Source of the DNA: Bacteroidales bacterium
Lineage (GTDB): Bacteria > Bacteroidota > Bacteroidia > Bacteroidales > F082
Direction of reading: 5' to 3'
Length of the DNA stretch: 35,660 nucleotides
Assembly: GCA_015489465.1 (NCBI GenBank)
Contig: WFZS01000066.1
Coordinates: forward strand, 1 to 35,660
The translations under genes and the position numbers were made by a program. The notes under the pieces were generated by a model that was not told the DNA's origin, searched no databases, and saw only the letters and a list, made by a program, of their open reading frames with translations. Of the stretch, positions 34,399 through 35,660 are shown piece by piece (position 1 is the first letter of the stretch; every line of letters starts with the position of its first letter).

Positions 34399-34442
34399 AA
34401 TTTCTTAAAAAACTTTCTTTGGAAAGAATATAGACAATAATT

Positions 34443-34479
34443 ACACTGTAAATAAGTTATTCCAGTTTATTTACAGTGT
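34443..34479 (+). terminator. 13-bp hairpin after purC, before the SH3b-NERD gene
   Basis: A perfect 13-bp stem (34443-34455 / 34467-34479) with an 11-nt loop is followed by an interrupted T-rich stretch. It could terminate phoH-purC. It also lies 8 bp before the next ATG (34487), where a hairpin could affect translation of that gene. Confidence 0.55.
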
Positions 34480-34486
34480 TAATTTT

Positions 34487-35660
34487 ATGTTGTCAATAGT
34501 AATTTTTAATAAGTTTTTAAAAACAACCTTTATTGTTGTTGTCGTATATTTTATTGTCAAGTATTTGATAGTTTTTAATTCGATCAAGGATATTTACATA
34601 CTTTCATCGGATTTGAATGTGAGAGCAAAACCCGAAATGGGCAGTGAAATATTGCATGTTTTGAAAAAAGGAACGAAAGTAAAAAAGTTTGCAGAAAAAA
34701 GGAATTGGTTTAAAATAAAACTACGAAAAGGTAACGGTTATATTCATTCGAAATATGTTAAACCTGTTCCTTTTACAAATTACATCTCTTTTCAAGATGT
34801 TAAAACTTTTAGTGCAAGTATATTAACTCTAACGGTTTTAATAAAACTTACTAATAAGCGTAAGAACGGAAAATCACGAAAACAAAACAAATTACCTGGA
34901 AAAAACTTGAATAAATCATATTTGGAAAACCGTAAATACGTAAAAAATGTTGAATCAGCGAAACCGGGAAAAAGATATCCAAGTATAAATGATAAATATG
35001 CCAGTATATCTTCACATAATATTAAAACACAAGCATCTGATACCGGTTCGAAATATTCCGGACGCATTAATAATTATTTTCAAAATCTTTACGTGACCGG
35101 CAATATTTCAACTAATTTTAGTAACGGAATTGATGCGGAGAGAAAGCTCGTTTCCAAATTAATCAGTTTGGGTTTTTTACCGGAAAATATTTTTCATGAT
35201 ATTTATATTGAAAAAGGTGTTAAGAATTTTTCTCAAATAGATCTATTGCTGATAACCGATGCAGGAATAATAGTTTTTGAAGTAAAAGATTACAGCGGCT
35301 GGATTTACGGTGACGGAAACAGCAAATATTGGACACAAGTTTTGGCTTACGGAAAACAGAAATACAAATTTTATAATCCGGTAAGGCAGAATTATAATCA
35401 CATCAATGTTTTAAAAAGGAAGTTGAGTAAATACGTTTCAGGTATTCCTTTCTTTTCGGTAATTTTATTTTTCGGTGATTGTAATTTAAAAAACATAAAT
35501 TATATACCTAAAGGAACGTTTGTCGGAAAATCGGAAAAGTTAAAAGATATACTCAGTGCTATTTTACAAAATAATCCACCTGTTAAATATCTTTATCGGA
35601 ATGAAATAAAACTTTTATTAAAAGAAGCTGCTGAAAAAGGAAAGAATATTGAAACCAAAA
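34487..35660 (+). CDS. Membrane-anchored SH3b-NERD domain protein, cut by the window edge
   Basis: At least 391 residues, still open at the edge. A hydrophobic segment at 13-30 is followed by a bacterial SH3 domain at about 36-92 (DLNVRAKPEMGSEILHVLKKG, then NWFKIK and GYIHSKYVKP). A second short hydrophobic stretch at 107-121 precedes a strongly basic, disordered-looking linker (121-195) and then a NERD nuclease-related domain (about 213-340). NERD signatures are E218 in DAERKLV, D252 in SQIDLLLI, and E265-x-K267 in IIVFEVKDYSGWIYG, together matching a PD-(D/E)xK core. The positive-inside rule would put SH3b in the periplasm and NERD in the cytoplasm. Codon use looks like the neighbours. Substrate and role are unknown. 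No start other than the ATG at 34487 is needed. Confidence 0.8.
   Translation, partial: MLSIVIFNKFLKTTFIVVVVYFIVKYLIVFNSIKDIYILSSDLNVRAKPEMGSEILHVLKKGTKVKKFAEKRNWFKIKLRKGNGYIHSKYVKPVPFTNYISFQDVKTFSASILTLTVLIKLTNKRKNGKSRKQNKLPGKNLNKSYLENRKYVKNVESAKPGKRYPSINDKYASISSHNIKTQASDTGSKYSGRINNYFQNLYVTGNISTNFSNGIDAERKLVSKLISLGFLPENIFHDIYIEKGVKNFSQIDLLLITDAGIIVFEVKDYSGWIYGDGNSKYWTQVLAYGKQKYKFYNPVRQNYNHINVLKRKLSKYVSGIPFFSVILFFGDCNLKNINYIPKGTFVGKSEKLKDILSAILQNNPPVKYLYRNEIKLLLKEAAEKGKNIETK

Follow-up and report, generated by a model that had tools for sequence, protein, structure and literature searches.

The locus at the right-hand end of this contig raises the question of what is encoded by a gene that appears to join a bacterial SH3 (SH3b) domain to a nuclease-related NERD domain across a membrane, and whether this pairing belongs to a stable system with partner genes. 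The window, meaning the whole stretch of 35,660 nucleotides that was analysed, is an entire contig (C66), one of 209 contigs of a Bacteroidales genome. Genomes, contigs and loci are denoted below by G, C and L numbers.

Domain layout and predicted nuclease core

The open reading frame on the forward strand (34487..35659) starts with ATG and runs for 391 aa with no stop before the contig end, so that, as the initial annotation had stated, the gene stops at the window edge. The last 130 bases matched only themselves among the contigs of the genome (E ≤ 0.001), and the gene could therefore not be extended beyond C66. Since the aligned relatives continue for approximately 15–20 residues past the cut point, and one of them further, the protein is probably nearly complete, with a similar number of C-terminal residues missing. 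The features of the gene were as follows.

34487..35659, + strand: whole gene, 3′ end cut by the contig end; TM, SH3b, weak TM, basic linker, NERD (open reading frame, Pfam, hydropathy)
34529..34585, + strand: hydrophobic helix 1, residues 15–33 (KD 2.35 over 19 residues)
34607..34762, + strand: SH3_3 domain, residues 41–92 (Pfam E 7.5e-13; solved relative 2kq8, E 8.1e-5)
34799..34855, + strand: second hydrophobic segment, weak, residues 105–123 (KD 1.13)
34862..35104, + strand: basic linker, residues 126–206 (81 aa, 17 K/R against 4 D/E; pLDDT < 50)
35126..35470, + strand: NERD domain, residues 214–328, with a predicted PD-(D/E)xK-like fold (Pfam E 4.7e-26; model)
35138..35140, + strand: E218, conserved core residue (23/23 aligned relatives)
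35240..35242, + strand: D252, PD-(D/E)xK aspartate (23/23)
35279..35287, + strand: E265-V-K267, ExK motif (E and K in 23/23)
35387..35389, + strand: Q301, conserved core residue (23/23)

The order of TM helix, SH3b domain, second hydrophobic segment, linker and NERD domain read by the initial annotation was borne out by Pfam and hydropathy. Both models that it had proposed for searching exceeded their curated cut-offs, SH3_3 (PF08239) with 48.9 bits against 27 and NERD (PF08378) with 91.9 bits against 22.1. The only other family found in the Pfam scan to E 1 was SH3_4, with 24.7 bits against a cut-off of 24.1. Helix 1 would serve as an uncleaved anchor. The sole other match to the NERD profile in the genome, on C202, was rejected as a second NERD protein; it is a frame of 120 aa which we take to be YraN-like.

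The core alignment comprised 23 of the 27 NERD matches, leaving aside three broken or short copies (L077, L093 and L098) and one distant, intact sequence (L103). Eight columns were invariant in all 23 relatives (G214, E218, Q250, D252, E265, K267, W272 and Q301), which indicates that the core is under constraint. D252, E265 and K267 fell at the positions first assigned to them, and these residues of the nuclease-like core are kept by the homologues throughout the alignment. We take E218, D252, E265 and K267 to be the catalytic PD-(D/E)xK residues.

An AlphaFold2 model was built from a four-row alignment. Block-mean pLDDT was 70–95 over residues 211–330 and 77–95 over residues 221–380, and was below 50 for residues 31–65, 75–81 and 83–213; helix 1 apart, the model is poor over most of the remaining chain and gives no usable fold for the SH3b domain. 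A Foldseek search of the PDB with the model found nothing at E ≤ 0.001, although many of the top rows were nucleases. With VIA-align 2, the NERD part was best matched by Cdn1 (Z 10.0, 127 aligned residues, rmsd 3.0), followed by Can2 chains (Z 8.2–9.5) and Upx (Z 9.0), then McrC, Card1 and Holliday-junction (Hjc-type) enzymes. These matches mostly covered approximately residues 208–365 of the model, and the best 50 rows included many nucleases by title and others of unknown or other function. The named matches presumably share the PD-(D/E)xK fold. They point to a PD-(D/E)xK-type nuclease fold for the NERD part, which is accordingly termed a predicted nuclease here.

In the alignment, the second hydrophobic segment corresponds to the strong second helix of another SH3b protein (L024) and to the single TM of short relatives, among which the aligned helices reached KD 2.35 (L072) and 2.44 (L092). 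Since helix 2 of the SH3b proteins lines up with the single helix of the short ones, the NERD domain would lie on the same side in both, presumably in the cytoplasm.

The explanation that we tentatively favour, with somewhat less than even confidence, is an acquired, stand-alone, membrane-tethered NERD nuclease that would cut incoming DNA, with the SH3b domain as a periplasmic anchor, adaptor or sensor. Helix 1 would anchor the protein in the membrane, the SH3b domain would sit in the periplasm and the chain would re-enter through the short helix 2, placing the basic linker and the NERD domain in the cytoplasm close to the membrane. There the NERD domain could cut DNA of phage or other foreign origin as it passes the envelope, and the tether would hold the nuclease away from the bulk of the chromosome. 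In this scheme the TM-NERD part would be a chassis and the SH3b domain a variable adaptor, which may hold the enzyme to, or report on, peptidoglycan or an entry site. The weakness of helix 2 in the window protein counts against this explanation and makes the proposed topology less certain. It would suit an arrangement in which helix 2 does not span the membrane and the SH3b and NERD domains both lie outside, as in a surface or periplasmic nuclease; however, a strongly basic segment follows helix 2, and the corresponding helices in L072 and L092 are strong, with 7 K/R in the 15 residues after them, making this arrangement very improbable.

Relatives, distribution and the SH3b domain

The closest relatives were proteins of 226–264 aa consisting of a single N-terminal TM and then NERD, and the hydrophobic segment N-terminal to NERD was strong in the short forms compared by hydropathy. 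In the tree the window protein was located in a starred clade of 18 rows, its placement within the clade being unresolved (5/20 inner branches starred). Judged by sequence, it is a member of a Bacteroidota family of short TM-NERD proteins, and examples such as WP_007479959.1, annotated as a nuclease-related domain-containing protein, belong to the same NERD subfamily. Intact clade members were 38–50% identical to the window protein over the aligned NERD part, with the same core residues and one TM before NERD; unlike the window protein, the short forms lack both the SH3b domain and the long basic linker.

The distribution of the family was determined in overlapping samples of genomes from the order, class and phylum. 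In the order, 18/393 genomes matched the family model at E ≤ 1e-12 and 9/393 at over 220 bits; in the class, 6/395 matched at E ≤ 1e-40, the window's own genome included; and in the phylum, 22/395 matched by the NERD part at E ≤ 1e-6. The gene was found in 0/4 congeners, which are drafts of 77–96% completeness. The copies of G686 and G1138 carry in-frame stops and that of G834 lacks the middle of NERD. Scattered occurrence together with broken copies in three genomes is the pattern of an accessory gene.

This pattern bears on whether the protein instead has a role in the envelope or in division. The one experimentally studied TM-NERD protein found was SmdA of Staphylococcus aureus, a cell division protein with a TM helix and a cytoplasmic NERD domain (PMC9040797). 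The window protein has the same order of TM then NERD. In an SmdA-like protein the NERD domain would be a septal protein or DNA scaffold and the SH3b domain would bind peptidoglycan; a wall role suits an SH3b domain, and S. aureus is reported to need SmdA to place its septum and build its wall normally, conserved residues of the NERD region being important (PMC9040797). However, the available text of that study describes SmdA as conserved through the Staphylococcaceae and as missing several conserved NERD residues, and reports no SH3b domain in it (PMC9040797). In contrast, the family here is patchy, broken in some genomes and not found in the four draft congeners, and keeps its core residues. 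We rate an SmdA-like function as quite improbable.

The SH3b domain was present in 2/18 clade members, as assessed by length and N-terminal sequence, with Pfam run on both and on two other members. The second case (G228, L024, 358 aa) has the same order, TM-SH3b-TM-NERD, with SH3_3 at residues 54–103 (42.6 bits against a cut-off of 27) and a strong second helix. The two SH3b domains are 35% identical over 57 residues, and the two forms come from two taxonomic families. G818, a sister in the genus of G228, is 72% identical over query residues 119–358; its protein keeps two helices, gave no SH3 match with Pfam and has a short leftover stretch that may be a remnant. Given this sister without the domain, the SH3b seems to be an outer module that is gained and lost while the TM-NERD part stays constant. 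The membrane SH3b-NERD fusion proposed by the initial annotation is thus supported by domains and hydropathy, and its expectation of a stable SH3b-TM-NERD architecture across Bacteroidota is not: the architecture is real but rare. A single origin of the fusion was also considered, which the weakly resolved tree and the level of SH3b identity leave undecidable.

The same rarity, and the absence from G818, would be expected if the protein were a generic housekeeping TM-NERD protein with the SH3b domain as a neutral, functionless insertion. SH3b modules occur widely in these genomes: the query matched 16/60 other relatives through its SH3b end. This is set against the recurrence of the TM-SH3b-TM-NERD order in two taxonomic families, with both SH3b domains over the Pfam cut-off, and we allow a neutral insertion only a minor chance. 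No partner gene was common to the two SH3b forms; as each gene sits at the end of its contig, this comparison covers one flank of each. A literature search covering few subscription journals found no paper pairing an SH3b or SH3 domain with a NERD domain. In the genus of G228, an unrelated SH3b protein with several hydrophobic stretches (L085:847–1923) also places an SH3b domain beside membrane helices.

Genomic surroundings of the window gene and its relatives

The neighbour upstream of the window gene was read as purC, and the following feature lies between the two.

34441..34482, + strand: AT-rich hairpin between the purC-like gene and the NERD gene, ending 4 bases before the ATG

The 102-nt hairpin stretch had a folding energy of −23.9 kcal/mol against a shuffled mean of −12.4 (z −4.07, 0/200 shuffles as good), and is perhaps the terminator of the purC-like gene or a leader hairpin masking the start. 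The NERD gene has a GC content of 28.9%, below that of the window as a whole (36.6%) and of purC (38.7%). In the congeners G002 and G004 a queA-like gene (Pfam Queuosine_synth) comes immediately after the purC-like gene, and in G003 other genes stand between the two; G001 has a CarboxypepD_reg protein plus an AbiEi/AbiEii pair at this place, and its other flank differs too. By this comparison, the window gene is located at a junction that varies among congeners. It may have been horizontally acquired, as the favoured explanation holds; the housekeeping genes recognised by eye in the left flank of the window count against that explanation. The AbiEi/AbiEii pair of G001 (L112:837–2468) occupies the junction held by the NERD gene in the window. 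A queA gene bridging the contig gap was rejected: the best match of the window genome is on C83, beside other genes and not at a contig end.

The neighbours of 26 related loci and the window were compared all against all. No conserved partner was found: clusters comprised at most four loci, and the recurring ones were generic families, glycosyltransferase-like and M23-peptidase-like (by eye; the L079 member by Pfam). The recurring neighbours anticipated by the initial annotation were therefore not recovered, and a stable system with partners is, on this comparison, not borne out.

The suggested link to defence fared better, defence-type genes (restriction, TIR and candidate defence genes) being located near several relatives. 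These were a TIR protein, type IIG and PLD-SNF2 at L074, type IIG at L092, PDC-S46 at L080, Tmn with a C5 methylase at L078, NERD-UvrD at L076, type IV restriction at L096 and PDC-S05 at L020. L079 adjoins a conjugative-type element (by eye) and L051 has a plasmid setting; at the remaining loci no defence gene was recognised by eye near the NERD gene. The TIR neighbour was identified by Pfam and is probably the same protein as the spbK match of the PADLOC scan.

Several arrangements were observed beside individual relatives. The NERD copies of L074 and L075 are 96% identical over 1093 bases of DNA; between shared blocks, the L074 stretch measures 8.7 kb and carries the TIR, type IIG and PLD-SNF2 genes beside NERD, and that of L075 measures 0.9 kb, so that L074:6099–15525 is a variable defence locus beside closely related NERD genes. 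Small TM-anchored proteins are encoded directly upstream of NERD at L051:4601–5314 and L099:7527–7928 (= L028:914–1315), on a Bacteroides plasmid and in G115 respectively. They form one family (34–45% identity, no Pfam match at 0.01) and are possibly a separate outer partner. A periplasmic-type protein recurs at L051 and L092. Related large proteins adjoin NERD in distant genomes at L096:8689–11832 and L100:4859–7999; that of L096, the one for which domains were run, is a type IV restriction-like PLD-helicase-DUF3427 protein.

The neighbourhoods were compared with a control by PADLOC (E ≤ 1e-20 for both sets). The test set held 115 proteins, from ORFs of at least 120 aa within 4 kb of 18 loci with NERD proteins excluded, and the control 117 proteins from 18 stretches of 8.5 kb at blind positions on contigs of seven of the same genomes. 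Among the 25 of 32 families listed near NERD, type IIG and PDC-S01 had two members each and mad3 three, with one each for type IV restriction, Tmn, PDC-S46, spbK, PDC-S05, PDC-S31, mad8 and NERD-UvrD; the PbeA, DrmMI and MTase_II rows were probably the same proteins as other rows. For the control, GajB helicase models, each with a single member, made up 19 of the 25 families listed (of 38), and the remaining rows were RTasHel, mad3, mad8, PDC-M37B (two rows) and dCTPase, with no restriction enzyme among those listed. The PADLOC lists do not identify members, so matches were assigned to loci by name and the defence candidates of each locus were picked by eye; strong matches could be located directly at 7/18 loci, and L075 was added because one of its genes resembles a gene of L078. 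The larger number of families in the control (38 against 32) counts against the favoured explanation. Overall the comparison leans to defence, in a small sample and with PADLOC models that include general enzymes.

A mobile-element DNA-processing factor would account for some of these settings differently, as a membrane nuclease for conjugation, element transfer or uptake, or simply as cargo. One relative lies on a Bacteroides finegoldii plasmid, one IMG/VR contig matches the alignment of the family, and 959/72,556 plasmid records match at E ≤ 1e-5 (865 predicted conjugative), the best 20 covering the NERD part. At L079 (7287–8748), an M23 peptidase gene, identified by Pfam, ends 10 bases before the same-strand TM-NERD gene, beside conjugative-element-like genes recognised by eye. 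However, the B. finegoldii plasmid is typed as non-mobilizable, and transfer-type genes were seen by eye at L079 only, with none recurring in the neighbour comparison; we hold this role to have a low probability. A prophage or virus gene was rejected as well, no viral relative of the full-length protein having been found and the 3/50,697 matching phage records matching via the NERD part.

Comparison with known nuclease and NERD systems

The membrane-tethered nuclease acting on incoming DNA, rated somewhat below an even chance, draws on the domains, the invariant core, the fold matches, the patchiness, the low GC content, the variable junction, the defence neighbours and the precedent of SNIPE. 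Against it, no report of nuclease activity or defence was found for the TM-NERD family. The failure to find a conserved partner, the direct placement of strong PADLOC matches at only 7/18 loci, the division role of SmdA and the sister G818 without SH3b also weigh against it. SNIPE is described as a membrane-bound nuclease that cuts phage DNA during injection and whose homologues have highly variable N-terminal regions (PMC13190303, Nature 2026). The likeness is one of functional analogy only, in a membrane-anchored nuclease with a variable N-terminal region, and offers a possible mode of action. SNIPE combines DUF4041 with GIY-YIG, a different nuclease fold, and the window protein has neither domain (Pfam to E 1). 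By this analogy, the protein could be a one-gene, entry-blocking NERD nuclease whose wall-binding SH3b domain places it, or switches it on, where peptidoglycan is damaged or opened during injection, a more specific version that we consider unlikely.

If DNA is cut at entry, the family would provide a second fold for the SNIPE type of membrane-nuclease strategy, and the SH3b version would offer a way to find out if such enzymes are directed by binding to the wall. The family is in any case easy to test, being a small membrane form of NERD encoded by one gene, with its core intact and its loci often variable.

NERD domains are widespread. The authors of the SmdA study wrote in 2022 that they knew of no earlier work on what NERD does in bacteria (PMC9040797). 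The NERD of PglW has been treated, by inference, as a possible backup nuclease in a BREX study (PMC12839542), and NERD is named in the Mokosh I and TALON systems (PMC10952713, PMC12458937). PglW of BREX type 2, which has kinase domains and approximately 1400 aa, was rejected as an identity for the window protein, given the 391 aa seen, no Pfam kinase and an NCBIfam score of 15.4 against 990 bits; MAD6 was rejected with 25.1 against an NCBIfam equivalog cut-off of 460 bits. What the window protein has in common with PglW, MAD6 and MkoA (Mokosh I) is a NERD stretch with weak profile matches, in which about 66–89 of the 612–1607 profile positions match.
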